Assembly (NCBI GenBank): GCA_009841145.1
Contig: VXMJ01000076.1
Coordinates: 1-64,000, forward strand
Source: Caldilineaceae bacterium SB0661_bin_34
GTDB lineage: Bacteria; Chloroflexota; Anaerolineae; Caldilineales; Caldilineaceae
Length of the DNA stretch: 64,000 bases
Direction of reading: 5' to 3'
Part shown: one piece after another, positions 36,681 to 51,252 of the stretch
Numbering within the stretch: position 1 is the first letter of the stretch
Layout of the letters: every line of letters begins with the position of its first letter
The notes under the pieces: generated by a model
Databases searched by the model: none
What the model was told of the DNA's origin: nothing
What the model saw: the letters and a program-made list of their open reading frames with translations, nothing else
Program-made: the position numbers and the translations under genes

Positions 36681-37625
36681 ATGACCACGGCACGTTTGGC
36701 CAGCGGCTCCCGCCGGGGTCCAGCATGGGACTGGGTCCGCATTCGTCGGGTGTTGCGAAAGTCCCAGTTCCACTTCGGCGTGGCGGTCATCGTCCCCACG
36801 CTGATTTGGTACTTCGTGTTCATGTTCCATCCAATCTTCCAGGCGTTTCGCATCGCCATGGTGGATTACAAGATCCTGGACCCCCAGAACAGTCCCTTCA
36901 TCGGTCTGGGCAACTACCAGAAACTGCTGCTGAACCCCCTGTTTCTGGTGTCCATCAAGAACACGTTCACCTGGACCCTGTATATCTTCCTCTTCATGCT
37001 GCCGATTTCGATGCTGGTGGCCACCACCCTGTCGAATGTGCGGCGGCTGCGGAATCTGTATCAGGCCGTGATCTTCATCCCGGTGGTAGTGTCCCTGGTG
37101 GCCGTGTCCCTGCTGTTTCGCATGGTGATGGATCCCGAAGTGGGCCAGCTGAACCGCATGCTGGACTTCCTGGGCATTCCCCCCTTCAAGTGGATGTCCT
37201 CCAGCCGTTCCGCCCTCGCGGCCATCTCGGGCATTGCGGTATGGAAAAGCATGGGGTTCTACATCGTGCTGCTCACGGCCGGCATGCTGAACATCTCGGA
37301 GGAGGTCATCGACGCCTCCCGGGTGGACGGCGCCAACGAGTGGCAGCGTTTCTGGCGCGTGACCATGCCGCTGCTGTCCCACACCATCATTCTGGTCGTG
37401 GTCCTGCTCACGGTCGGTTCGCTGCAGGAATTCACGTTGCCCTACGTCATGACCGAAGGGGGACCCGGAACCGCCACCTACCTGTACAACCTGCTCATCT
37501 ATGAGGAAGCCTTCACACACATCCGGTTCGGCACGGCCACGGTGGCCGCCCTGTTCCAGTTCGTGTTCATCCTGATTGCCAGCCTGATCCAGATCCGCGT
37601 GCTGCGGCCCAACTGGTCCTATTGA
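36681..37625 (+). CDS. ABC sugar-importer permease, MalF/UgpA-type
   Basis: 314 residues with six hydrophobic helices and the binding-protein-dependent transport signature EVIDASRVDGANEWQRFWRV, the EAA loop that docks on the ATPase. The N-terminal IVPTLIWYFVFMFHPIFQAF is typical of the first permease of CUT1 sugar importers. ATG 36681 (MTTARLA) is preceded by a GAGGACGC stretch; an upstream ATG at 36555 falls in the hairpin region. Its stop overlaps or abuts the start of the second permease. Confidence 0.88.
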   Translation: MTTARLASGSRRGPAWDWVRIRRVLRKSQFHFGVAVIVPTLIWYFVFMFHPIFQAFRIAMVDYKILDPQNSPFIGLGNYQKLLLNPLFLVSIKNTFTWTLYIFLFMLPISMLVATTLSNVRRLRNLYQAVIFIPVVVSLVAVSLLFRMVMDPEVGQLNRMLDFLGIPPFKWMSSSRSALAAISGIAVWKSMGFYIVLLTAGMLNISEEVIDASRVDGANEWQRFWRVTMPLLSHTIILVVVLLTVGSLQEFTLPYVMTEGGPGTATYLYNLLIYEEAFTHIRFGTATVAALFQFVFILIASLIQIRVLRPNWSY

Positions 37626-37636
37626 GAATCCGGGCT

Positions 37637-38503
37637 ATGACCGGCTCCGCTCCCGCCCTCAAACCCGCGCCCCACATAACGTCTCCTTGGCGCAATCTGC
37701 GACAGGGCGTTCTCCATGTGTTTCTGGGATTCATGGCGATCGTGGCCCTGTTTCCCTTCGTGTGGATGGTGTTCGCTTCCTTCAAGCCCTTCAAGGAGCT
37801 GGTGCAATCCAAGGCGCTGTTGCCCATCAACTGGACTACGGAGAACTACACCGAGATCCTCACGCGGGTCAACTTTGAGGTGGCGGTCGCCAACAGCATC
37901 TATTCGGCCGTGACCGTCACCGTGATAACCCTCCTGACCTCGTCGGCTCTGGGCTTTATCTTCGCCAAGTATCGGTTCTGGGGGAAGGAGTACCTCTTCA
38001 TCCTGTTGCTGTCCACCATGATGGTGCCGTTCGCAGTGGTGCTGGTACCGCTTTACATCACGATCGGCGACCTGAACCTGGTCAACAAGCTGTGGGGCTT
38101 CATCATCACCGGGTTGTGGTCCACCTTCGGCGTGTTCCTAATGCGCCAGTTCATGGAGGTCATCCCGTACGAATACCTGGATGCGGCACGGATCGACGGA
38201 GCGTCGGAATGGCGCATCTTCTTCACCATCATCATTCCCCTGTCCACATCGCCCATGGCGGCCCTGGGCATCTTCGCGTTCCTGGCCAACTGGGACAGTT
38301 TCCTGTGGCCCCTGGTGGTCCTCAACACTCCCGACAAGCAGACCCTGCCCCTGTTGCTGGCAGGTTTGCGCAGCATCTACTGGGCCCGGTATGACATGTG
38401 GTCGGCCGGGTCCGTCATGACCACCGTGCCAATCATTTTGGTCTACGCCTTTGCCTCCAAGTATTTCATCCGCGGCATGGCGTTGACCGGCATCAAGGGT
38501 TGA
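37637..38503 (+). CDS. ABC sugar-importer permease, MalG/UgpE-type
   Basis: About 288 residues, six hydrophobic helices, with the EAA loop EYLDAARIDGASEWRIFFTI and the CUT1 permease features FPFVWMVFASFKP at the start and FLANWDSFLWPLVVL late. It pairs with the preceding permease to form the membrane channel. The start may be ATG 37637 or the TTG at 37622, which overlaps the previous stop; the shorter form was chosen because nothing conserved precedes it. The ATP-binding subunit is missing from the operon, as is common when one MsiK-like ATPase serves several importers. Confidence 0.87.
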   Translation: MTGSAPALKPAPHITSPWRNLRQGVLHVFLGFMAIVALFPFVWMVFASFKPFKELVQSKALLPINWTTENYTEILTRVNFEVAVANSIYSAVTVTVITLLTSSALGFIFAKYRFWGKEYLFILLLSTMMVPFAVVLVPLYITIGDLNLVNKLWGFIITGLWSTFGVFLMRQFMEVIPYEYLDAARIDGASEWRIFFTIIIPLSTSPMAALGIFAFLANWDSFLWPLVVLNTPDKQTLPLLLAGLRSIYWARYDMWSAGSVMTTVPIILVYAFASKYFIRGMALTGIKG

Positions 38504-38515
38504 CACCGACTGCCA

Positions 38516-40150
38516 TTGTCCATTGGAAACATCGTAGTGCCCCAACCTCGGGTGGTGCAGGCTCCGGACGCGTCCCGCGTGTTACGGGACGGCATTGACG
38601 TCATCGCAGACCTGCTGGGCGGCATGTTGGGTCCCATGCCGGCAGTGACCATGGATCAGGCCCATGCCGGCTACGGACTGGATGCGCTGGATGACGCCCC
38701 CACCGTGGCGCGGCGCATCATCAGCCTGGGGGATCCGCAGGTGGACGTCTCCGCGATGCTGCTCCGCAATCTGGTCTGGCAGATGGAGGAAAACCTGGGA
38801 GACGGTGGGGCCATGGTTGCCGTGCTCACCCAGGCCTTGGTGCACGACACGCTGCGGCTTGTGGAAGGCGGAGTGTCGCCGACGCGCCTGGCTACCGGAC
38901 TGCGTCGCGCCGTGGATTTGGTGGAGGCAGCGCTCACCTCCCTCGTCCAGCCCGTATGCGACGAAGACCAATTGGCACTGACTGCCAAGACCGTGACTGG
39001 ACACGACGCAGCCGCCTTGCTGATTGGCGAAATGCTCTATGTGATGGGTCCCGATGCCATCATCGACGTTGAAGAGCACTTTGGCCGAGTGCTGGAGAGT
39101 CGCTACACGGTTGGTGCCGCCTTCAAGGCGTCGCCGGCGCATTGGAGCCACCCGGAAGGCAAGGCGGACCGTCTGCAAATGAACGACTGCCTTGTGGCAG
39201 CGGTCGACGGTGAACTGGCCGACGACGACGATATGCTCGCCCTGATGACCGCCGCGTTGTATGCCCGAAAAGGCAACCTGCTGATTTTAGCGCGGGGTTT
39301 CAGTGAGACCATGGTGGCTTGGCTGGCCCTGAACGACCGAAACTCCAACAGTCCCGTGGCGGTATCCGGGGTTGTGTTCGACCCCACACCTTCGGCCGCG
39401 GATTGTCCCTATGAGGACCTGACCTTCCTCACGGGTGCCACCATCCTGAGTTTGCCCTTCACGAAACCCGTGGGCCAGGTGCAACCCGACGACTTGGGGC
39501 ACGCGGTCACCGTGGATGTATCCCGGGAAGGGATTCGGATCGTGCCCGAACCCCACCGCGCAGCAAGGATCCATGAATGCGCGCGCCAACTGCGGGCCAA
39601 GCGCGATCTTCTGGATGCCGAAGATCCGTCAGCCGATTGGTTGCGGCGACGCATTGCCGCCATGGACCTGGGATCGGGTCAGGTCCGCGTGGGAGCCGAT
39701 ACGGATGTGGAACGCGAGTGGCTGAAACGGATATTGGAACGGGGGATCCGCTCGGTGGGCCATGCCTTGAGGGAAGGGGTGGTGCCAGGAGGTGGATTCG
39801 GTTACGTGCACGCAGCCAAGGAATTCCGCGAAGTGACCGGCCTCCATCCAGAGGAGCAGATGGGACTCGACTGCGCTTGCAGGGCGCTGGACACACCGGC
39901 CCTGCGCATCATGGCGAATGCAGGTGTTCAGGCACCCGGCGTGAAGCTGGAGGCAATCCGCGAAGCGGGCAGTCCCTTTGCCTGCGATGTCCTGACCGGT
40001 GCCGCGGTTGACTCCTTTGTCGAAGGATTGATGGACCCCCTTCCGGTGGTGCGGGAGGCGTTCAGGCTGGCAGTGGCCGGAGCCGTCACCACCCTCACGA
40101 TCGACACCCTGGTATTACGACGCAATCCTCCCAAGATGGCCAAGCCATAA
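38516..40150 (+). CDS. divergent GroEL-like (group I chaperonin fold) protein
   Basis: 544 residues with the outline of GroEL: GDGGAMVAVLTQAL near residue 95 in place of GDGTTTATVLAQ, an apical-domain-like middle (LLILARGFSETMVAWLALN), and REGVVPGGGFGYVHAA near 418-433 matching EGVVPGGG. The conserved aspartate that precedes this block in GroEL (the ATP-hydrolysis residue of the VDDALxAT segment) is replaced, since the sequence reads RGIRSVGHAL, and the GGM tail is absent. It starts with TTG 13 bases after the second permease, so it belongs to the sugar-uptake operon. It is unlikely to be the housekeeping chaperonin (no groES adjacent); an assembly or scaffold role is conceivable but unproven. 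Confidence 0.72.
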   Translation: MSIGNIVVPQPRVVQAPDASRVLRDGIDVIADLLGGMLGPMPAVTMDQAHAGYGLDALDDAPTVARRIISLGDPQVDVSAMLLRNLVWQMEENLGDGGAMVAVLTQALVHDTLRLVEGGVSPTRLATGLRRAVDLVEAALTSLVQPVCDEDQLALTAKTVTGHDAAALLIGEMLYVMGPDAIIDVEEHFGRVLESRYTVGAAFKASPAHWSHPEGKADRLQMNDCLVAAVDGELADDDDMLALMTAALYARKGNLLILARGFSETMVAWLALNDRNSNSPVAVSGVVFDPTPSAADCPYEDLTFLTGATILSLPFTKPVGQVQPDDLGHAVTVDVSREGIRIVPEPHRAARIHECARQLRAKRDLLDAEDPSADWLRRRIAAMDLGSGQVRVGADTDVEREWLKRILERGIRSVGHALREGVVPGGGFGYVHAAKEFREVTGLHPEEQMGLDCACRALDTPALRIMANAGVQAPGVKLEAIREAGSPFACDVLTGAAVDSFVEGLMDPLPVVREAFRLAVAGAVTTLTIDTLVLRRNPPKMAKP

Positions 40151-40452
40151 CCTTGGGACTGGTGAAGTCGGCATGACATACCGGCTTGGCAGTAGTCCGA
40201 TTTTGTTGAACGGTAGATACCCCGCACACTGCCTGAATTAGAATCGCGTTCCGATGGTGGGCACCATCGACACTCCCGGGAAGGGTTGGAGGCAATCCGA
40301 TGGTTGGCTGACCAACCACAGTCAAAGCTGCGGGGTTCCGTGGCGTGGCGGGAGAAGCATCCGAGTGTGTCAAGGTGTATGTCCCTCCTTCACCTTGTCT
40401 TCTGTGACAACGCGTTGACAGGCGTTGTCGCAAAACGCGTCTCACCGCCGTC
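40151..40452. other. about 300 bases without a recognisable gene
   Basis: Left border of the accessory island. Nothing recognisable on either strand. Confidence 0.45.
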
Positions 40453-40578
40453 TTGAAACTGAAACAGTACACCCTTGGCAATGTGTGGAAACCCTGGATG
40501 TACGAGAACGCCGCCAAGTTCCTGCGTGACGACGAGGATTACTTCCGGTTCATTTGGACCGAAATCATGGAGCGTTGA
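40453..40578 (+). pseudogene. C-terminal fragment of a phage tail-region gene
   Basis: A 41-residue open stretch (LKLKQYTLGNVWKPWMYENA...) without its own start, in frame to a TGA at 40576. Its position directly before a small ORF and a tape-measure-like fragment matches the order tail-assembly gene, small gene, tape-measure gene in siphophages. The earlier part of the gene is lost. Identity is inferred from context only. Confidence 0.4.
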
Positions 40579-40579
40579 C

Positions 40580-40870
40580 ATGGCCCGCTACCGCCTACGA
40601 CTGCACCTGCCGGACGGTGACCAATGGGACGTGTCCGTGGACGAGTCCAACCGCTGGGAACTGCCCGCCGACGCATTCGAAACCGAAGAGGATCGGGCTG
40701 ACGCCGCCGAGGCCGTGGCAGGCAAGGTGGCCGACAGCCTGTTGACCGACCCGCCCGGCTACCTGCCCATGTTCGCCATGCGCTACGCTATCCAGGCATT
40801 GACGGCGTATCCGGGTTCCGAACCCCTGTTCGAAGTGCCGTTCACCGACGATCCACTGGTGCACTACTGA
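40580..40870 (+). CDS. small acidic protein, probable phage tail-region ORF
   Basis: 96 residues (MARYRLRLHLPDGDQWDVSVDE...), rich in aspartate and glutamate, no membrane segment. Its ATG is one base after the preceding stop and its TGA overlaps the ATG of the next ORF (TGATGA), the tight packing of phage genes. No domain recognised. It may be intact but sits in a remnant. Confidence 0.5.
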   Translation: MARYRLRLHLPDGDQWDVSVDESNRWELPADAFETEEDRADAAEAVAGKVADSLLTDPPGYLPMFAMRYAIQALTAYPGSEPLFEVPFTDDPLVHY

Positions 40871-41103
40871 TGACGACCTCACTCGGTGCCGCCGAAGGCC
40901 GCATAGAGGTCAACACCGGTCCGGCCAAGGCGTCGTTACGCGACTTGGACCGCACCATGAAACAGACTGCGGAACGCAGTCATGCAGGGTTCCAGTCGGT
41001 GATACGCACCGCCAAGATCATGGGTGCGGCCATCACGGCCGTTGACACCACCGCTGCCAAGGAAGATGCGGCGTGGGTGATTCAGACACTGCCAAGGCAG
41101 TGA
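40870..41103 (+). pseudogene. N-terminal fragment resembling a phage tail tape-measure protein
   Basis: 77 codons. The start (AAEGRIEVNTGPAKASLRDL..TMKQTAERSHAGFQSV..MGAAITAV) resembles the first residues of tail tape-measure proteins (xGRIxIDTSxAxxxLRxLDxxM). A full protein would be 600 residues or more, whereas this one stops after about 60 homologous residues where the next gene begins, so it was cut by insertion or deletion at about 41060-41103. Confidence 0.5.
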
Positions 41104-41105
41104 CG

Positions 41106-42858
41106 ATGGACGAGAGTCATAACCTCAAGTGGAAGTCGTCCTGGCGAGACGAGTACCTGAAGTGGATCTGCGGGTTTGCAAACGCTCAGGGCGGCCTGTT
41201 GGTCATCGGCAAGAACGACCGTGGTGAGGCCGTTGGCGTGAAGGACCCATTGCGGTTGTTGGAGGAGATACCCAACAAGACACAGTCCCTTTTGGGTATC
41301 GTCGTCAACGTGGACCTCCAATCGGAGGAGCGTGGCGAGTACCTGGAAATCAGGACCTGGAAATCAGGGTCGAGCCTCATCCCAATCCAATCAGCTACAA
41401 GGGCGAGTACCACTACCGCAGCGGCAGTACCAAGCAGGTCCTGAGAGGCGCAGCGCTGAACCGATTCCTGCTCGGCAAGCATGGCCGCAACTGGGACGAC
41501 ACGCCGATGCCGGGTATTGGACTTCGCGATCTGGACGGCCGAACGTTGGACGAGTTTCGGCAGCGAGGTGTCGCCAGCGACCACATGCCAGCCACGATCG
41601 TCGGCGAGTCCGACGGTAATCTGATCGAACTGCTGCATCTGCGCGAAGGCGAGCATCTGCGGCGCGCCGCGGTGCTGCTGTTCCATCCCAACCCGATGCG
41701 CTTCTTCGCGGGTGCGTTTGTGAAGATCGGCTACTTCAGATCGGAAACGGAGCTCGCGTACCAAGACGTTGTTGAAGGCAGTTTGTTCGTCCAGGTTGAC
41801 CGTACCGTTGACCTGCTGCGCACGAAGTACTCAAAGGCGGAGGTCTCCTACGAGGGCATCTTCCGCCGGGAGACCCCGCCGGCTCCTGGCGAAGCACTGC
41901 GCGAAGCAGTGCTGAACGCAGTCGCCCATCGGGACTACAGCAACCCGGCACCGATTCAGATCCGCGTGTACGACGACCGTATTTCGTTGTGGAACCCGGG
42001 GACCTTGCCTTTCGACTGGACCCTGGACAAGCTCTTGGGAACACATCCTGCGGCACCGCACAATCCGGGTATCGCGAATGCGTTTTTCCGCGCCGGCATG
42101 ATCGAGGCATGGGGACGCGGCATCAGCCATATAGTCGAGACCTGCCAAGTGACCGGCACGGCCCAACCAAAGTGGTTCGTGGAACCCGACGGGTGGCGAC
42201 TGGAATTCGTATTCACGGAATCGGCAGAACTGTCCACCGACGATGAGGGGCGGGGAACCGGCACCTTAACCTTCACGGCTGCACAAGGTACATCGAAACA
42301 GCCAGAGTCACGGCCAGAGTTGAAGCCAGAGTCGCAGCCAGAGTCGCTGGCGGCCAGAGTGCTCCGGCAACTGGCGAATGGACCGATGTCCAAGGCGGAC
42401 CTGTCCCGCAACCTGGGACAGAAGCACGTTTCCGGCCAACTCAACAAGGTACTCCGCAGCCTCCTGGCCCATGGCACCGTTGAATACACAATCCCTGAAA
42501 GGCCCCAGAGCCCACTACAGAAGTACCGCCTGGCGGACGCGGGAGCGGTAGATAAACCATCCTCCAACGATGAGGACCGAGGAACCGGTACCTCAACTCT
42601 CGCAGCTGCACAAGGCACATCAAAACAGTCAGAGTCACGGCTAGATCCGCAGCTAGAGTCACAGTCAGAGTCACTGACGGCCAGAGTGCTCCGGCAACTG
42701 GCGGATGGGCCGATGTCCAAGGTGGACCTGTCCCGCAATCTGGGACAGAAGCGCGTTTCCGGTCAGCTCAACAAGGTGATCCGCAACCTCCTGGCCCATA
42801 CACAATCTCCGAGAAGCCCCAAAGCCGACAACAAAAGTATCGCCTGTCGGGGGTGTGA
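41106..42858 (+). pseudogene. AlbA/Schlafen-type DNA-binding protein (COG2865) with frameshifts
   Basis: The first frame reads WRDEYLKWICGFANAQGGLLVIG, the start of an AlbA_2 (divergent AAA-4) domain. At 41341-41368 a 14-base unit (ACCTGGAAATCAGG) is tandemly duplicated, shifting the frame. Removing one copy restores EYLEIRVEPHPNPISYKGEY with the following frame, which continues to YHYRSGSTKQVLRGAALNRF, REAVLNAVAHRDYSNP and FRAGMIEAWGRGI, all family marks. A C-terminal winged-helix unit (RVLRQLANGPMSKADLSRNL) with its linker is present twice; the second copy lost 13 bases, changing its end. Family members are transcriptional regulators or helicase-like proteins often found in defence and phage regions. 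Not functional as written unless the 14-base repeat contracts. Confidence 0.75.
41341..41368 (+). repeat. 14-base tandem duplication causing a frameshift
   Basis: ACCTGGAAATCAGG occurs twice without interruption. One copy less puts the two halves of the AlbA-type gene into a single reading frame. Confidence 0.9.
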
Positions 42859-43136
42859 CTCCAGAAAATGATGTTTGGGTCATGAGAGGAGCTTCCTGCA
42901 CGGAACGAAGCACCCAATCCTACCCATGGCCGGTGCCGTCCAATTGGAATGTGATTACCTTGGGCCTCTTCATCTTTTCTGCTCCTAGGCCACCGTTAAC
43001 GAAACTCAAACATTGTCAGTGCCTCCACAATCCACAGGACGAGGAGAGCAGTGCTATACTCAAAACACTGCTCTGCATCACCGAATCAGAAAACCACCAT
43101 TACCAACTACACCTTGACAAAGAGGAGGTAGCAACA

Positions 43137-44018
43137 ATGGCCAGACGCATTAATGTCTCACGGTTACGGAACCAACTGCGCCAGGCAGATAACCAACGCC
43201 GACGGGCTGTGCAGAAAGTCAATTCTGAGATTCGAAAATACAACAATCAAGCTCGAGCCCACAACGCGCGTGTCAACACCGCAATCAACACCTACAACCG
43301 TCAAGTTCGACAATACAATGCAAGGGTAAGAGCTAATCAGTCTCGTCTACAATCAGCATTTCAACATTTGTCTCGGCAGACTGTTACGGTCCGTTACACC
43401 ATAGTCTATCGCTCTACACTGGAACTTGCCGCTGCATACGAAACACTAAATACAAGCAACGCGGATCCCTTCCTTTCAGATCTTGCTGAACGGGAAACAG
43501 CGAATAGCGCTCAAGTGCTGAATAGTCTCCTTGAGGAGAATGATGATCCATCAGGCATCACGACAGACTCGACAGATTCCAAGATCACTCATGTATTAGC
43601 CACTATCTCTCCTGACCTCAATAACCGTTGGGATGGCGCGCTGTTTGCCCTTGATCCAAACAATCCTGATGCAGCACGGCATTTCTGCGCAAGTTCAAGA
43701 GAAATCATTACGGCTATTCTTGATATCGAAGCACCTAATGCAGATGTGATCCAGCTTTTGCCAAATTGCCAACTTACACCGCAAGGAATGCCAACAAGGA
43801 GATCCAAAATGAAATTTCTGCTTTGTCGGCAAGGTAGTGCACATGAAACTCTTGAGGAATTTGCAGATGCCAATATCTCTGATGTGGTGAATCTATTCCA
43901 GGTACTTAACACTGGAACCCATGGTGCTGCTGGAGCATACTCAACAACCCAATTGACGGCGATCAAAGATCGTGTTGAAGGTGCTATTGAATTCATTTGC
44001 GCAGTTGCGCGCCCTTAA
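43137..44018 (+). CDS. coiled-coil protein with putative pPIWI-associated-nuclease-like C-terminal domain
   Basis: 293 residues from ATG 43137, preceded by a strong ribosome site (AGAGGAGG). Residues 5-80 are a charged, N/Q/R-rich probable coiled coil with repeats such as YNNQARAHNARVN and YNRQVRQYNARVRA. The C-terminal part (about 155-293) has RWDGALFALDPNNPDAARH, ASSREIITAIL and LNTGTHGAAGAYSTTQL, which resembles the predicted nuclease domain found beside prokaryotic Argonaute-like (pPIWI) genes. The gene is clearly poorer in G+C than its neighbours (sampled lines 40-55%), a sign of transfer. It lies between the AlbA-type pseudogene and transposase debris, near a type III R-M system, so a defence role is plausible. 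The domain call is from memory of the family pattern and moderate at best. Confidence 0.5.
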   Translation: MARRINVSRLRNQLRQADNQRRRAVQKVNSEIRKYNNQARAHNARVNTAINTYNRQVRQYNARVRANQSRLQSAFQHLSRQTVTVRYTIVYRSTLELAAAYETLNTSNADPFLSDLAERETANSAQVLNSLLEENDDPSGITTDSTDSKITHVLATISPDLNNRWDGALFALDPNNPDAARHFCASSREIITAILDIEAPNADVIQLLPNCQLTPQGMPTRRSKMKFLLCRQGSAHETLEEFADANISDVVNLFQVLNTGTHGAAGAYSTTQLTAIKDRVEGAIEFICAVARP

Positions 44019-44138
44019 GCTGGGCTTTGTGCAAAGTAGGGGTATGTATCGATAGCGAAAGGCAGGATGGCATGATGCACCGAAGTATCACCAAAGGTTC
44101 CTCATGCCCAATCTGCCACTCCCGTTATACCATTGCTG

Positions 44139-44510
44139 GAGCCCTTCGCGCCTCTCTTTGCCCCCCGTACCTGGCGCAAGGTATGGATCCTGCTGACGGG
44201 GGTCATTCCGGCCCCCGGCCGGCACACGGTGTCCACGGCCTTGTATGCCGCCGCTGGCTGCCCGACCGCGAGCAGGTAATCGGGGACCGAACCTACGCGA
44301 CCCTGCGGTTACTGGCCGCCTGTCAGGACATGACCCCACTCGTCACCGTCCTGTTCCGGCTGCGCCTGGATGCGGTCTCCTCCATGATCCACGCCCGCCA
44401 CAAGCCGCATGGTATGTCAAGACCGTCCCCACGTTCTCCGACATCCTGGCCTGCGTCCACCATGTCCTCTGGACCCGGATCCCGCCTTTTTCCATGTCCC
44501 CAGCAGGGCA
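44139..44510 (+). pseudogene. DDE transposase remnant (IS701/IS4-superfamily-like)
   Basis: One frame begins EPFAPLFAPRTWRKVWILLT then GVIPAPGRHTVSTALYAAAG, the N terminus of DDE transposases of this group, and stops after about 45 codons. Another frame further on has TFSDILACVHHVLWTRIPPF, like their C terminus. The central catalytic part is deleted and frames are broken. No ends were identified. Confidence 0.5.
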
Positions 44511-44525
44511 AACGCAAAGTCGGTT

Positions 44526-45600
44526 TCAGGGCAGTGCGGCGGCCAGGATCCAGGGTTGTCGTCCGATGCGATCGCGCAGCAGGCCGATGGACACGTCCAT
44601 TTCAAGTTTCCGTTGGATCGTGCGCACCATGTTCAGGGCGGCCCGGCGCAGGACGCCCATGACGTCAGACGCGTTCCCCTTGCGCATGCGACAGTCGTCC
44701 TCCCGGAACTGCACGTCCAGGGTGCGGTGCAGGCCATTCCTGCCCCTCCAGTGGCCGCGCATGAGCTCTTGCAGGGCCTCCGCGTGCGGGGGGCGGCTGG
44801 CGATGTAGTAGCGCACCGAACGCTGCCGACGGCCGCCGGGTCCCCGGCGCTCCGCCTGAACGCGGACCAAGCTGCGGATGCCGGGCCACTGTTCGGGGTC
44901 GGCCACCCGTTCGCAGAGGCCGGGGCCGCCCAGCACCATGCAGAGGCGCCGCTCGCGGCGGCCGCCGTTGCGCTCGACGGTCTCGCAAGCGGTCCCCGGC
45001 CTCCGGCTTGAAGGTTCCCCGGTCGGCATCGGCCGCCCGCAGGGCCTGCACGATGGCCCGCTGGCAGCCGGCGGCATCGATCGTGACCACGGCCCTCTCC
45101 AGGTGAATGCGGTCGAGCAGGCGGGGAATGGCCGTGATCTCGTTGCTCTTGGCGTCGCACGCCTCCTGGGCCAGGGTCAGCCCCTCCCGCACCAGGAAGG
45201 CGCCAGCCATGTGCAGGGGGCGGAGGCCGTCGGCCCGGTCGCCCGAACGGCGCGCCAGCTTGCCCCGTCCAAGGCCAGGATCAGTTCCTTGAGTCCGGGC
45301 AGGCTGGTGCCGTCCAACAGCCACAGGGCCGCCTTCATGGTCGTCTCCGGATCCAGCCGCTGGACCCGGCGCAGGCAGGTGTCGCGGGACGGGGTGGTCT
45401 CGCCTAGGGGCAGCCACAGTCAGAACCAGGCCCGGTGGTCGTGCGTGAAGGCGGCCACGGCCGCCATGCTATCGGCGTCCCCGGCCAGGGCTACGAGCAG
45501 CGTGACCAGGAGCAGGGGCAGGGGATGGCGCACGTCCCGCGGGTCGCTCGGATCGGACAGCGTGGCCAGGAGGGCGGGGTCGAGACATGCGACAATATAG
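44526..45600 (-). pseudogene. ISAs1-family transposase, decayed
   Basis: On the minus strand three frames together cover an ISAs1 (H-repeat) transposase: N-terminal PSDPRDVRHPLPLLLVTLLV from about 45570, middle CDAKSNEITAIPRLLDRIHL..AVVTIDAAGCQRAIV near 45050-45190, and C-terminal LDVQFREDDCRMRKGNASDV near 44700. At least two frameshifts separate them. In the conserved HWxxEN segment the glutamate is arginine (HWRGRNGLH), so even the restored protein would probably be inactive. Confidence 0.75.
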
Positions 45601-46010
45601 GTGATGGAGGTTGCCGTGGGGCCTGTAAGGATAAGCAACACCCCACAGGATGCACGGCGGCCCTCTTTTTTGCTGCTTTCGGCGGCCCGGAACCAACTGC
45701 CGGCATGGATGATCCGTACCGGCTTAACTCCAATCAACGGTGGATTTGTTCCGTGTCCGGGGACCGCGGCCAATGTCCCGAACCGACCCTTCACCGCTCC
45801 GTTTCACCCCCGACCCGCGACTTTGCGCTTGCCCTGGCTGAAGACCGAAACCGGCACCCTCAACTTCGGACACCTGATGGCCCAGGGCATGGCCTGAACC
45901 ACGCACGGAGCGGAACCCCGCTGGCAAGGAGGCTACCGATGACGGCCTGCCACCAATATCAACGAGATTGAAACAGTGCCATATTAGGAATATCCTTCCA
46001 GAGCATCGCG
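45601..46010. other. about 410 bases of transposon debris or spacer
   Basis: Lies between the ISAs1 remnant and the end of the type III restriction gene. Short frames only; none recognised. Confidence 0.4.
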
Positions 46011-48617
46011 TCAGTCCGCGCCAGCGAGTAGGAGATGTGGTAGCTTCACCTTCCATTCGCTCATGAGAATGAGCGCGCACTCTATAGTCTGGCCGTCGTC
46101 CGCGACCAATTCGAGCTGTCCGGCGGGAATACTGTCGTCCCACACGAAGGTGCTGGAAAGGAACTCGAGCACGTCGCGCTTGTAGGCGGTGTCCAGATTA
46201 TCGAGGTGATCGCCCTTGGTCTCAAGGACGACGATCCGGCTGGCGGCATCATCTTCCCGTACAGCAAAGATGAAGTCGGGGTAGATCTTCTGCTTCCTCC
46301 AACCTTGGATGCCGTACTGCGTTCGGGCGACATTGCGGTGCCACCACGTCACCGCTGCCTCACCGTCCAGGTAAACGGCGACATCCTGTTCGTCGTTGTT
46401 CAAATCGCTCCGGTACACGGGGTCGAACAGGCTCCTCTGCAAGGGACCGCCGCTCTGCGTCAGAAACTGGTGGCTCCCAGATGGCTCGTTCGTGTCAAGC
46501 TGGGACGGCATTTGCCAGTCGCGACCGTCTAGACGCAGGCGGAACTGGATTCGCCCATCCTCCACCCCCGCTTTGAACAGTGCTTCGGCCCGCCTGTCGC
46601 GTTCCTTGTCCAACCCCTTCCGCGTCGCCTCAATGACGAGCTGGGCAAGCCCTCCCAACTTCCGGTCGTCGAAACCGCGATCATGAAGCGCATCGAGCAG
46701 CCTTGCCACGATCTCACGGCCTACGAAAGGATTCGGTACGATATCCAGCATCATGCGAACTGTGTGTACGGGATCGAACGTGGCGACCTCTGCGGGCCCA
46801 GCTATCGTCTCGCTCACATCACCTCCCTCCGTCAGTTCTATGCGCCGCAACTGCGCATCGGCGGCCCGCGCGTTCTCGGGAATGCCAGCCGCGATGGGCT
46901 CCGGGTCGAAACCTCGCCAGTCAATCCGGGACAGGACATCCACTTCGTAATCAAGTTCACGCACCCGGTCATCATCTGCGACCATGACCTTAGGTAGGTA
47001 GATCGCCGTGGATGCGAGTGTGGAGCGACGGTGGATCTTGCGGTGTCCGCTTTGGGTTTCGGTCGCGTCGTGCTGGGAGACCAGAGGGTGGAGATCACCG
47101 AGCCCGTCCCGCTCCAATCCTTTCTTGATCGCCTCGACCACTTGCTTCGTCTCCGCATGATGCGTGATGACATGGCATTGGTCGAGTGCCTTGACGCCGG
47201 TCCTCTCTGCACCAGGCTGGCGGAGGACACGACCCACAAGCTGGGTCATGGCGGTCATGCCCGAGCTTGCGGCCAAGGCGCAGAGCACATAGGCGAACGG
47301 GCAGTCCCAACCTTCTTGGAGCGCCTGTTTGGTGATGATCGCGCGCACCCGGTTCGTCGGTGATAAGAGGTCTTGGTTCTCCGGCTGGTTCAGGTCATTC
47401 TGCTCAGCCGTCTTGATGGCGACCTCGGCCTTGTTGAAGCCCATCGTAAGTAGCCAGTCCCGCACATCTTCCGCGTGGATGTGGCCGCTCTCTCGCTGAT
47501 CCGTCCCGGTACGCTCGACCTGCACCAGCATGATCGGGCGGATGTAGCGGTTGGTGTCGGCGCGGAAGTTGTCGGCCTCGGCGTGGAGCGTGTTCAGCTT
47601 GGTCAGTGCCGCGCTAAGCGTTGCCCGCCAGTCGGTGCCTTGGCGGGGCTCAAGATTGAGGGGGATCTTGATCATGCCCTCGCGGTCCAGTTCCCGGCCC
47701 GTCACCTCGACCAGCAGGTTGGCATGGCGCCCCGACCTCGGGTTCTTGCCTCCGCGCGCCTTCACGTCCTTGGGTGTTGCCGTCAATTCCAAGACAAAGC
47801 ATGGGTTGAACCCGTACAGGGTGTCGAAGGCGAGGTCGGAGATCGCCCGGTGCCCCTCGTCTAGGACGATGACCGGTCGGATAATCCGCAGGGCGTTGCC
47901 AAGCGAATCCTTCACCATCGTGACCAGCCCGCCTTCATAGGCATCGAGGTTTCGCGTTTGTTTCAGCGCGCGCCGGTGCGCGTGCTGCTCGCCCTCGGGC
48001 GGGAAGAAGCCGTGAACGTCGCCCCGGTCCCGGAAGATCTTCAGCCTTTCCTTGGTTTCCCGGTTTGCCGATTGCAACATTAGGAGCATAACGCACAAAT
48101 GGCTTTCCACATCACGTGCGTCGAGCCGGTCCATCTTCTCCATGATCCGCACGCGCCCGGCGGCGGCGCGGTCGATTGCCTGCCGGTAGGGATGCTCGCG
48201 GTCCTTGAGATGTTTCAGCGTTTGCCGGTAGATCGCCTCGTTCGGCACGATCCACAGCACGAAGCCCGTGTTCCGCTCCAGGTAGCGGCCCATGATGCGG
48301 GATACGCTGGACACGGCAAGCCATGTCTTGCCGCCCCCGGTCGGGACCTTGAGGACCGCGTTGGGTACCGGACCGCCACACCCATCCTTGCGCGGCGAGA
48401 ACGGAATCGCGGCGCGTGATGCCGGCAATCTGCCCTCGTCCCGCATTGCCTGCCATGCCTCCCGGGTGAAGTCGGGAATCGTCAGGTCCAGATCCGTCCT
48501 CTCGGCTGCCAATTCCGCGATACCGTCGGACCGTTGCTTTTTCGTCCTCAGGTGCTCGATGTAGGCATCGAGCGTGGCAAGTGCCCGATCCTGATAATCC
48601 AGTTGACGGAACTTCAT
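46011..48617 (-). CDS. res: type III restriction endonuclease, Res subunit
   Basis: 868 residues: a superfamily 2 helicase/translocase with a C-terminal nuclease. The Walker A motif is VPTGGGKTW near residue 91, the Walker B is VLDEGHRAIS, then ELTATP, and motif VI is QLVGRVLRQP. The nuclease core near residues 780-800 reads YPDFIF...RIVVLETKGDH, a PD-(D/E)xK site. It cleaves DNA after ATP-driven communication between two inversely oriented unmethylated sites, in complex with Mod. The ATG at 48617 (MKFRQLDY) is five bases after the mod stop, an operon. All motifs are intact, so the system is probably functional. Confidence 0.9.
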   Translation of the reverse strand: MKFRQLDYQDRALATLDAYIEHLRTKKQRSDGIAELAAERTDLDLTIPDFTREAWQAMRDEGRLPASRAAIPFSPRKDGCGGPVPNAVLKVPTGGGKTWLAVSSVSRIMGRYLERNTGFVLWIVPNEAIYRQTLKHLKDREHPYRQAIDRAAAGRVRIMEKMDRLDARDVESHLCVMLLMLQSANRETKERLKIFRDRGDVHGFFPPEGEQHAHRRALKQTRNLDAYEGGLVTMVKDSLGNALRIIRPVIVLDEGHRAISDLAFDTLYGFNPCFVLELTATPKDVKARGGKNPRSGRHANLLVEVTGRELDREGMIKIPLNLEPRQGTDWRATLSAALTKLNTLHAEADNFRADTNRYIRPIMLVQVERTGTDQRESGHIHAEDVRDWLLTMGFNKAEVAIKTAEQNDLNQPENQDLLSPTNRVRAIITKQALQEGWDCPFAYVLCALAASSGMTAMTQLVGRVLRQPGAERTGVKALDQCHVITHHAETKQVVEAIKKGLERDGLGDLHPLVSQHDATETQSGHRKIHRRSTLASTAIYLPKVMVADDDRVRELDYEVDVLSRIDWRGFDPEPIAAGIPENARAADAQLRRIELTEGGDVSETIAGPAEVATFDPVHTVRMMLDIVPNPFVGREIVARLLDALHDRGFDDRKLGGLAQLVIEATRKGLDKERDRRAEALFKAGVEDGRIQFRLRLDGRDWQMPSQLDTNEPSGSHQFLTQSGGPLQRSLFDPVYRSDLNNDEQDVAVYLDGEAAVTWWHRNVARTQYGIQGWRKQKIYPDFIFAVREDDAASRIVVLETKGDHLDNLDTAYKRDVLEFLSSTFVWDDSIPAGQLELVADDGQTIECALILMSEWKVKLPHLLLAGAD

Positions 48618-48622
48618 CCGTA

Positions 48623-50443
48623 TCAATGCCGGTCGATGCGGTAGAGCGCAAAGGGCAGCGGCACGAACTCGACAGGGATGTCCTCCTGGGCAAGCATTTT
48701 CTGGCTGACGTATCGAGCTGGAGCGAATACCAGGTGACGCTTCTCCGGGTCTCTTGCTGCAAAGCCCTTGGCTCGGGTCAGCGTCAACGCGGCCTCTGGA
48801 GACTTCAGCCAGTCCAGATCGGGTTTGTAGATCAGCCAGACATGCTGGCCATCGGCTTCGCCGAGGTACCAATCGGGATCCTGGATCGACTTCGGGTCCA
48901 AGGGGCGATTCGTGGCCATGTGAAAGAGTGCCGCCCCGAGCCCGTCCCAAGGGGGCAACGTCTCCCCGGTCAGTAACCGGTCGAGTTCCACGGGTTCGCC
49001 GAGGGTGCAGTAAGTGAAGGAGCCACCAAGCCCGTCCGCCCGCTCCGCAACCGCCGTCTCACCCGTGACGATGAGTTCACCGTCCTTGACTTGCCGTCTG
49101 ATCCGGTCGTACTTGTGGCCGTGCAGATTTCCGATCGCCTCGACCTCCTCCGTGAGCTTGCGGCAGTTCCTTAGCTTCGACCATGTGATCTTCTCGCGGA
49201 GCAACTCCTCCTTCTGAGTGCCGGTAAATGCGTATCCTTCGATTACCCTTCGAACTCGCTCCGCCGTCAAGGCGTCGGCGTAGTCTTCCATCTCGACGAG
49301 CACGAACTTGCGGTTGCCGTCGTCACGCCTGTTGGCTTCGAGCACCGCGTGAGCCGTTGTTCCCGATCCCGCGAACGAGTCCAATACAATGGAATCCCGC
49401 TCGGTTGCGATCTCCAGGACGCGGCGAACCAGCTCAACTGGCTTGGGGGTATCGAATGCGGTGCTCCCAAATATTCGCTTGATCTGCGCTTTCGCGCGGC
49501 GAGAACTGCCGATATCTCTGTGATACCAGATCGTTTCCGGAGGTCGGCCTGATGAGGTATCGGCGTAGATGCGGTAGTACGGTACCCAACCATTCGCCCC
49601 TTGGCGCCACTCGATCCGTTCGGACTCTCGTGCGCATTTTTCCGAATTCCACCGCCACCGTCCATCGGAACCGTCTTGCCGCTTGGGATAGACCTCGTTG
49701 CCGTCCGGGGCGACAAGCGCGAAGTAAAGATTGGGACGTGCTTCACGGGTTTCCTCATGACCGCCCATCATCGCGCGCAGGGGCTTCAGGTAGTAGCTGC
49801 GGCCTTGTTCGTTTCTCAGGTTGTAGTGGTCGGGAGCAGACTCGTCTTCTGGAGAGATCCGCTGAATGATCATTTCGTCCAAATTCTTGGCGAAGACCAG
49901 AATGAAATCGTGGCTTGACGAAAAGGTGTCGGCATCCATTCGAGGGCTGTCGGACTTCTCCCATACGAGGATGCCCAGATTCAACTCATCCCCGAACACC
50001 TCGGAAAGAATCAGCTTGGCATGGTGAACCTCGTTGGCGTCCAAGGTGATCCAGATGGTGCCCTTGTCTGACAGCAACTCGTGAAGGAGCCGCAGCCTCG
50101 GCCACATCATGGCACACCACTTGTCGTGGCGGAGACCGTCCTCGACTCCGACCGGGTTGGAGTTAAGCCACTCGCGTATCATCGGAGCGTTTACGTTGTC
50201 GTTGTAGCACCAACCTTCGTTGCCGGTGTTGTAGGGCGGGTCGATGAAGATGCAGTCCACCTTGCCGGCGTAGAGCGGAAGGAGAGCCTTGAGGGCGTGG
50301 AGATTGTCCCCGTGGACGATCAGGTTGCCGTCGAGCGTTGGCTCGCAGATTCCCTTCTCGGCATCCATGACCAAGGGCCGGAACGGAATCGACAGGTGGT
50401 GGTTGTAGACGAATTCCTTGCCCTTGAAGCTCAGTTCACTCAT
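48623..50443 (-). CDS. mod: type III DNA adenine methyltransferase, Mod subunit
   Basis: 606 residues of a beta-class N6-adenine methyltransferase. The catalytic motif is CIFIDPPYNTGNEG near residues 64-77 and the AdoMet motif, later in the sequence as in beta-class enzymes, is LDSFAGSGTTAHA. The region between and after holds the target-recognition part. Mod alone methylates the site; with Res it forms the restriction complex. The ATG at 50443 (MSELSFKGKEF) fits the family start. No simple repeat tract suggesting phase variation was seen in the gene. Confidence 0.9.
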   Translation of the reverse strand: MSELSFKGKEFVYNHHLSIPFRPLVMDAEKGICEPTLDGNLIVHGDNLHALKALLPLYAGKVDCIFIDPPYNTGNEGWCYNDNVNAPMIREWLNSNPVGVEDGLRHDKWCAMMWPRLRLLHELLSDKGTIWITLDANEVHHAKLILSEVFGDELNLGILVWEKSDSPRMDADTFSSSHDFILVFAKNLDEMIIQRISPEDESAPDHYNLRNEQGRSYYLKPLRAMMGGHEETREARPNLYFALVAPDGNEVYPKRQDGSDGRWRWNSEKCARESERIEWRQGANGWVPYYRIYADTSSGRPPETIWYHRDIGSSRRAKAQIKRIFGSTAFDTPKPVELVRRVLEIATERDSIVLDSFAGSGTTAHAVLEANRRDDGNRKFVLVEMEDYADALTAERVRRVIEGYAFTGTQKEELLREKITWSKLRNCRKLTEEVEAIGNLHGHKYDRIRRQVKDGELIVTGETAVAERADGLGGSFTYCTLGEPVELDRLLTGETLPPWDGLGAALFHMATNRPLDPKSIQDPDWYLGEADGQHVWLIYKPDLDWLKSPEAALTLTRAKGFAARDPEKRHLVFAPARYVSQKMLAQEDIPVEFVPLPFALYRIDRH

Positions 50444-50994
50444 TGACTGATCTTCTTGCCTCCGTGATTCATCGCCGTGGCTCTCCTTTTCCAGCGGTTC
50501 TACGCTCGTGCCTTGGCTCGGCCTGCTCTCGTGAACACCCTCCAATCTACGCCAGACAGGGCGTAGCGTACTACAGGTTCGTTCACCCGCAGAAGGTCAT
50601 TGGGGTTTTACGCTTCGGCGATGGAGCGGGGTTCGAGATCCTGACGACTTGGCGTTCCATGCTTCGGTGAGCGATCTTGGGATGGTGGGCAAGCCAGCCT
50701 ACGAGTGCAACGAACCTGTGAGAAGTGGACGCGCACAGTGTTGGAATTCCCTCAACGTAGGTTTCGCTATGCCCTTTGACATCCGCCGCCGGTACCGTGA
50801 GCGGCTGTTCCAATGCCATGAAGGTTCGTTGCACTACTAACCCTTGTGCTGGTTATCCTATGGGCCGGTGCCCCCTTTTTCACAGTCCCGGCCGTCCCCC
50901 GACATGGACAATGCCCACAGCTGTCCCCAGCCTGGCTCTGGGAGTTTGTCTGCTACACCGGCTGAGCACGACCGGGCCCCCAACAACACACCGC
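50444..50994. other. 551 bases upstream of mod: inverted repeats, no gene
   Basis: Contains a short hairpin CTACGCC/GGCGTAG (50547-50553, 50560-50566), possibly a regulatory site for mod, and a pair of 14-base inverted repeats (50704-50717, 50822-50835). No protein-coding frame is convincing. Confidence 0.5.
50704..50835. repeat. 132-bp unit bounded by perfect 14-bp inverted repeats
   Basis: AGTGCAACGAACCT at 50704-50717 is the exact reverse complement of AGGTTCGTTGCACT at 50822-50835. A related ACAGGTTCGTTCAC lies at about 50572. The size and structure suggest a small non-autonomous element (MITE-like) or an extended hairpin. No target duplication was identified. Confidence 0.45.
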
Positions 50995-51252
50995 TCAAAG
51001 TTGTACAAAGTTCAGGTAGGGGATCATCATCAAAACAGAACCTGCGGCGAGGTACTCGGCTACTTCCTCGCGGACTGCCTTGATGCCACGCGCCGGGACG
51101 ATTCCCCCGTCCTCAAAAAACAGGGACAGTGCTTCGACCGCATTCGGGACGATCTCATCGAATGTGTCGGCTGCCGAAAAGCAGCCGGGCACGTCCAGAA
51201 AGCGAATCCCGTAGGCACTTCCCTCATCCTTGTCAATCACCGCAACATACAT
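50995..51252 (-). CDS. HicB-like antitoxin domain protein, short
   Basis: 85 residues matching the partial RNase H fold of HicB antitoxins: MYVAVIDKDEGSAYGIRFLD and VPGCFSAADTFDEIVPNAVEAL. A usual HicB continues with a ribbon-helix-helix or helix-turn-helix DNA-binding part, but this one ends after MMIPYLNFVQL, so it is truncated or one of the short forms. No HicA toxin frame was found on either side. Probably an orphan. Confidence 0.7.
   Translation of the reverse strand: MYVAVIDKDEGSAYGIRFLDVPGCFSAADTFDEIVPNAVEALSLFFEDGGIVPARGIKAVREEVAEYLAAGSVLMMIPYLNFVQL

Follow-up and report, generated by a model that had tools for sequence, protein, structure and literature searches.

PADLOC lists an Argonaute-associated nuclease, Aga_Nuclease (PDLC02413), whose profile of 267 positions is related to the protein described here. 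CoCoNuT coiled-coil nuclease tandems, a form of type IV restriction, join a long coiled coil to a predicted nuclease (PMC11090510), and the anticodon nuclease PrrC, a HEPN RNase, is kept in check by a type I R-M system (PMC3710099). Searching the literature library used for PF18165 or the pP_pnuc names gave no paper. Here we analyze a gene that combines a coiled coil with a pP_pnuc_1 (PF18165) domain, found in the window, by which we mean the whole stretch of 64,000 nucleotides from Caldilineaceae bacterium SB0661_bin_34 that was examined. The PADLOC library used has no entry for this combination as a stand-alone system.

An intact gene of low G+C content in a variable island

The gene (43137–44018, + strand), supported by its ORF translation, Pfam match, relatives and AlphaFold model, is an intact open reading frame of 293 amino acids running from an ATG at 43137 to a stop codon ending at 44018. 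Homologues likewise begin with 'M-[AP]-R-R' at the position of this ATG, making a longer ORF with a GTG start unnecessary. The sequence confirmed two features named in the original prediction: a strong ribosome-binding site (AGGAGG, 43123–43128, + strand, 8 nt 5′ of the ATG) and a low G+C content (46.8% in the gene vs 62.1% across the window). The G+C content of the relatives was likewise below that of their surroundings in 64 of 84 cases (median −3 points), which fits the expectation for a mobile gene. A promoter and terminator scan at the gene gave no signal above shuffled sequences.

Comparison with four loci of same-genus genomes (L101, L112, L113, and L114) placed the gene in a variable island (40217–51019) between conserved backbone blocks: the window aligns with these genomes at 77–95% identity from 36894 to 40216 and from about 51020 onwards, whereas most of the sequence between does not. 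A short repeat inside the island, at about 42234–42796, matches one other genome (G002). The 10.8-kb island is absent from sister genomes and holds, besides the gene, a frameshifted Schlafen/AlbA gene, IS debris and a type III R-M system. In the domain scan the upstream Schlafen gene (41106–42871, + strand; frameshifted near 41350) had AlbA_2, HATPase_c_4, and Fic-like_C domains, the Fic-like_C segment at its C-terminus being present as a tandem duplication. Proteins combining Schlafen, a minimal histidine kinase and wHTH are widespread beside BREX-type loci (PMC12839542). Between the gene and the R-M system lies a transposase remnant (a weak DDE_Tnp_1 match, 44665–45417, − strand), and the R-M system itself (46011–50545, − strand) consists of a ResIII restriction gene (46011–48950) and an N6/N4 methylase gene (48623–50545). 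The predicted AlbA-type neighbor upstream and type III R-M system downstream are therefore present, but the prophage suggested upstream was not confirmed: neither of the two small ORFs in that stretch matched PHROG. No Argonaute or Piwi domain was found among the window neighbors scanned, in line with the earlier claim, and the sole Piwi-domain match in the genome lies on another contig (G000:C33:45296-46105; L098), unlinked to the pP_pnuc_1 gene. Elsewhere in the window, at 38516–40150 and downstream of two ABC permease genes, we observed a divergent cpn60/TCP-1-like chaperonin that is 87–92% identical only in same-genus genomes; its full-length relatives elsewhere are below 40%.

A compact family found in many phyla

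Residues 156–286 match Pfam pP_pnuc_1, the "predicted pPIWI-associating nuclease" family, with E=5.6e-38 and 130 bits against a gathering cut-off of 26.3 bits, so that the pP_pnuc resemblance first noticed from the sequence alone is a strong family match rather than a vague one. All 76 aligned family members match pP_pnuc_1, and the PADLOC Aga_Nuclease profile matches the protein with E=1.3e-7. We found no relative of the protein in NCBIfam and none in a sequence search of the PDB with the protein and profiles; a Pfam scan of the protein found no ATPase domain.

A single-sequence scan of genome contigs found nothing, and a six-sequence alignment gave 101 encoding loci in bacterial genomes, of which 80 were kept. 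Altogether about 100 full-length relatives were found, with 36–56% identity and always with a coiled coil and a pP_pnuc_1 domain, and nearly all align from residue 1 to the end. An arrangement that the original prediction took as potentially new is thus shared by a whole family and not confined to this genome. The relatives are spread patchily over Chloroflexota, Pseudomonadota, Actinomycetota, Bacillota, Bacteroidota, Verrucomicrobiota, Planctomycetota, Acidobacteriota, and others, and seven plasmid records carry them (in six, about 40% identity extends over most of the protein). In a tree of the relatives, which bears 17 phylum labels, the window protein groups with two Chloroflexota copies (support 100/99), and the labels take 23 changes where the minimum is 16; this excess is consistent with horizontal transfer but is not proof of it. 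Among 100 related genomes any PF18165 match occurred in 4–6 and a close full-length copy in one, which indicates that the gene is not a housekeeping gene.

Searches of phage and viral collections found no copy of the family. With PHROG included, they returned weak coiled-coil matches to tail tape-measure proteins and nothing else; we judged these to be compositional and rejected a kinship. It is nevertheless on these matches, and on the IS debris adjoining the gene, that one could base a reading in which the gene has no defence role and is a housekeeping, phage-structural or transposon-cargo gene. Given that the phage and viral collections searched hold no copies and that R-M, BREX, Gabija, and Ago neighbors recur among the relatives, we regard this as very unlikely.

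Most relatives stand alone, some beside defence systems

In 52 of the 73 loci for which both neighbors were known, there was no co-directional gene within 50 bp. A conserved or obligate partner gene was sought across 84 loci and none was found, so an obligate partner was rejected; the commonest neighbor family, HsdM, occurs in 8 of the 84. Nor did we find an antitoxin or partner able to restrain a toxic RNase. In an uncontrolled survey, in which some 20 neighbors were scanned one by one, defence systems recurred among the neighbors. Type I R-M systems surround or adjoin the gene in five loci (L071, L084, L075, L085, and L089), and in L071 and L084 the gene sits between hsdS and hsdR. It follows the XhoI/PaeR7I gene of a type II R-M system in L009 and L058, BrxL of BREX is immediately upstream in L076, and Gabija GajA is nearby in L019. 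A HerA-like protein is a neighbor in L037 and a GmrSD/SspE-like protein in L071. ThsB-like TIR, DUF4365-APAZ, and short Ago genes accompany the family in L023 and L028, with related copies in L025 and L081, and a short Ago lies beside the gene in L059. The original prediction of a stand-alone gene in a defence setting is thus supported by the neighborhood survey, and from gene context alone we infer a role in defence. Since an Ago was detected nearby in only about 5 of 84 loci, the Argonaute link behind the domain name is real but occasional.

Several gene sets deserve separate mention. Loci L023, L025, L028, and L081, whose hosts are Pleomorphomonas, Acidomonas, Stappia, and Marinicella, carry a near-identical set of DUF2188-like, ThsB-like TIR, pP_pnuc_1, DUF4365-APAZ, and short Ago genes; L023 and L025 look nearly identical, indicating recent transfer or contamination. 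The small DUF2188-like gene recurs beside the family in Bacteroidota, Actinomycetota, and Pseudomonadota (L052, L059, L062, and L023). The closest relative of the window gene, in Caldilineaceae COS1_bin_2 (G045), follows a compact set (L015:584-5074, − strand) of a sigma-factor-like gene, a 309-aa gene of no named family and an SMC-like ATPase gene, next to an E1/JAB-like gene and HsdR; this is possibly an undescribed multi-gene system.

A conserved coiled coil precedes the domain

An AlphaFold model of the protein, built on 76 sequences, had a pLDDT of 92 over its full length and contained helices only (residues 7–80, 85–105, 111–132, 151–157, 159–171, 179–198, 201–207, 221–231, 237–260, and 270–291), with no strand of at least three residues. 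The N-terminus is rich in Asn, Gln, and Arg and is predicted to form a single helix of 74 residues (7–80; 43155–43376, + strand). Asn occurs in it every seven residues (29, 36, 43, then 54 and 61), the other core position being Val, Ile, or Leu, and among the 76 aligned full-length relatives, over which we counted conservation throughout, N54 and N61 are invariant. Up to the last coil motif, lengths differ by multiples of seven in two series that lie four residues apart; this holds for all 49 relatives that begin canonically. These steps and the single four-residue offset point to a true coiled coil with one stutter and not to low complexity, in line with the original prediction. Two linker helices follow (residues 85–132; 43389–43532, + strand), with a conserved E-x-E-x2-N-S motif (E120 and N123) in which E120 is nearly invariant. 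Asn in the core is a typical feature of parallel dimers, and dimerization is at least as likely a role for the coil as the sensing proposed originally.

The C-terminal domain is predicted to be all-alpha and HEPN-like

The pP_pnuc_1 domain (residues 156–286; 43602–43994, + strand) was modeled alone with a pLDDT of 88 and is predicted to be an all-alpha, HEPN-like helical bundle. Twelve residues are invariant in the 76 sequences (W165, N176, D178, R181, H182, C184, S186, R188, R221, H262, R279, and E281) and N258 is nearly so. H262 follows helix 3 (residues 237–260), with N258 four residues before it (N-x3-H). E189, in helix 2 (residues 179–198), is conserved in 75 of the 76 sequences; the residue four positions after it is Ala in the window protein, which lacks the Ex3[KR] form. 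Of the 76 sequences, 41 carry an Arg seven residues before H262 (R-x6-H); the window protein has Gln255 at that position.

A fold search with the whole protein returned nothing, an outcome probably due to the dominance of the long helix, and no fold search, including a PDB search with the C-terminal model, gave a match at E≤0.001. In the latter, the first rank was taken by 2jpu with a match probability of 0.82 but E=0.59 (TM 0.45/0.50), and the HEPN toxins 8yuf and 8xdj and Csx1-Crn2 (8y7g) were within the top 21 matches. 2jpu (NMR) and 2q00 (X-ray) show the same protein (PMC10475850), and a HEPN survey places 2q00 in the HEPN-T/PaREP1 branch, in which R is lost and H conserved (PMC3710099). 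The window protein, without the Arg and with the His, has the same motif state as PaREP1. A Pfam search over the 76 members found no HEPN family match. Profile comparison (hhalign) with HEPN and DUF4145 alignments from related genomes was not significant, in a test that did not link two known HEPN families to each other either; it aligned the motif 'fNdGTHG' with the 'GNxAxH' of those alignments, over 10 columns only. Topology, motif, and nearest structure are three weak signs, and taken together they suggest, as a hypothesis and not a claim of membership, that pP_pnuc_1 is a divergent HEPN-like domain.

The original prediction of a nuclease is supported in so far as PF18165 is matched strongly, but the word is inherited from the Pfam name, and the structure prediction that had been proposed as a check gave a confident model that disfavors a PD-(D/E)XK DNase. 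That fold was rejected, as far as a model allows, for want of an alpha/beta core; from the all-alpha model and the invariant Arg and His, we consider such a DNase unlikely and an HEPN-like RNase the better guess. A DNA nuclease effector, as the Pfam and PADLOC labels have it, would normally work with Argonaute or R-M modules and would act here alone or in trans. Besides the Aga_Nuclease match, the short-Ago genes in L023, L028, and L059, the related copies in L025 and L081, and the Piwi gene elsewhere in the same genome speak for it; with most copies standing alone, Ago near so few of them, and no PD-(D/E)XK-like core in the model, it appears quite unlikely.

The missing Arg raises a different alternative, in which an inactive HEPN-like domain on a coil serves as a non-catalytic scaffold that binds nucleic acid or protein, senses infection and acts by binding, for example by blocking translation or a phage protein. 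Several HEPN families are indeed non-catalytic (PMC3710099), and the canonical Arg is absent from the window copy and from 35 of the 76 sequences. The strict invariance of H262, R221, R188, R181, and R279 across phyla is, however, a pattern typical of an active site, and we hold a scaffold to be unlikely. It is this residue conservation alone that points to catalysis.

A possible single-gene effector of abortive infection

The reading that we tentatively prefer, at a little under an even chance, is that of a horizontally moving single-gene effector against phages or other mobile elements, in which a coiled coil would assemble an HEPN-like RNase that acts by abortive infection. The Asn/Val heptads would hold at least two copies together, the coil serving for assembly and possibly for sensing too; HEPN RNases usually occur as dimers (PMC13092281), and bringing two copies together would be a simple purpose for the coil. 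H262, together with N258, E189, and one invariant arginine, may form a metal-independent RNase site. The dimer would be activated by infection, or when a neighboring first-line system such as R-M is overcome, and would then cut RNA and stop growth, as PrrC backs up type I R-M. Such an effector could work by itself or, as a second line, back up R-M, BREX, or Argonaute systems. We infer HEPN membership, RNase activity, dimerization, and the trigger, as we do defence.

A bolder version of the RNase reading is also conceivable, although we think it rather unlikely. The family would then be a widespread and uncatalogued one-gene defence, in which an Asn-zipper coil serves both to sense infection and to assemble an HEPN-like RNase of a new, Arg-poor kind; this RNase would be what the 'pPIWI-associating nuclease' label really stands for, and Argonaute systems would have recruited a pre-existing stand-alone effector.

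For a domain whose name says no more than predicted nuclease, these results would supply a probable fold, active site, and context. Its family is compact, occurs in many phyla and on plasmids, and can be tested by cloning one gene. Should it encode an RNase effector able to work alone or together with R-M, BREX, or Argonaute systems, it would add a portable abortive-infection module that the defence catalogue searched does not contain.

Comparison with known systems

The Pfam match is far above its cut-off, yet compared with PF18165 and Aga_Nuclease as described, the window gene and most relatives have no Argonaute partner, and the conserved N-terminal coil defines a stand-alone subfamily. The features that the domain, as modeled, would have in common with the PaREP1/HEPN-T and DUF4145 branches of HEPN are an all-alpha bundle, an invariant His where helix 3 ends, an Asn four residues before that His (the 'GNxxxH' of DUF4145) and an acidic residue in helix 2; PaREP1, like the window protein, lacks the Arg. 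It differs from HEPN in having no significant sequence or fold score, the canonical Arg in about half of the family only, and an extra coil and linker helices. Like the PrrC and RloC anticodon nucleases, the protein has a C-terminal domain predicted to be HEPN-like, and the gene can sit in hsdMSR operons (L071 and L084); unlike them, it has no ABC ATPase domain, is about 290 amino acids long and lies mostly outside R-M operons. CoCoNuT resembles it in the long coiled coil and predicted nuclease, but the window has no McrB-type GTPase neighbor and the 84 loci no conserved partner.
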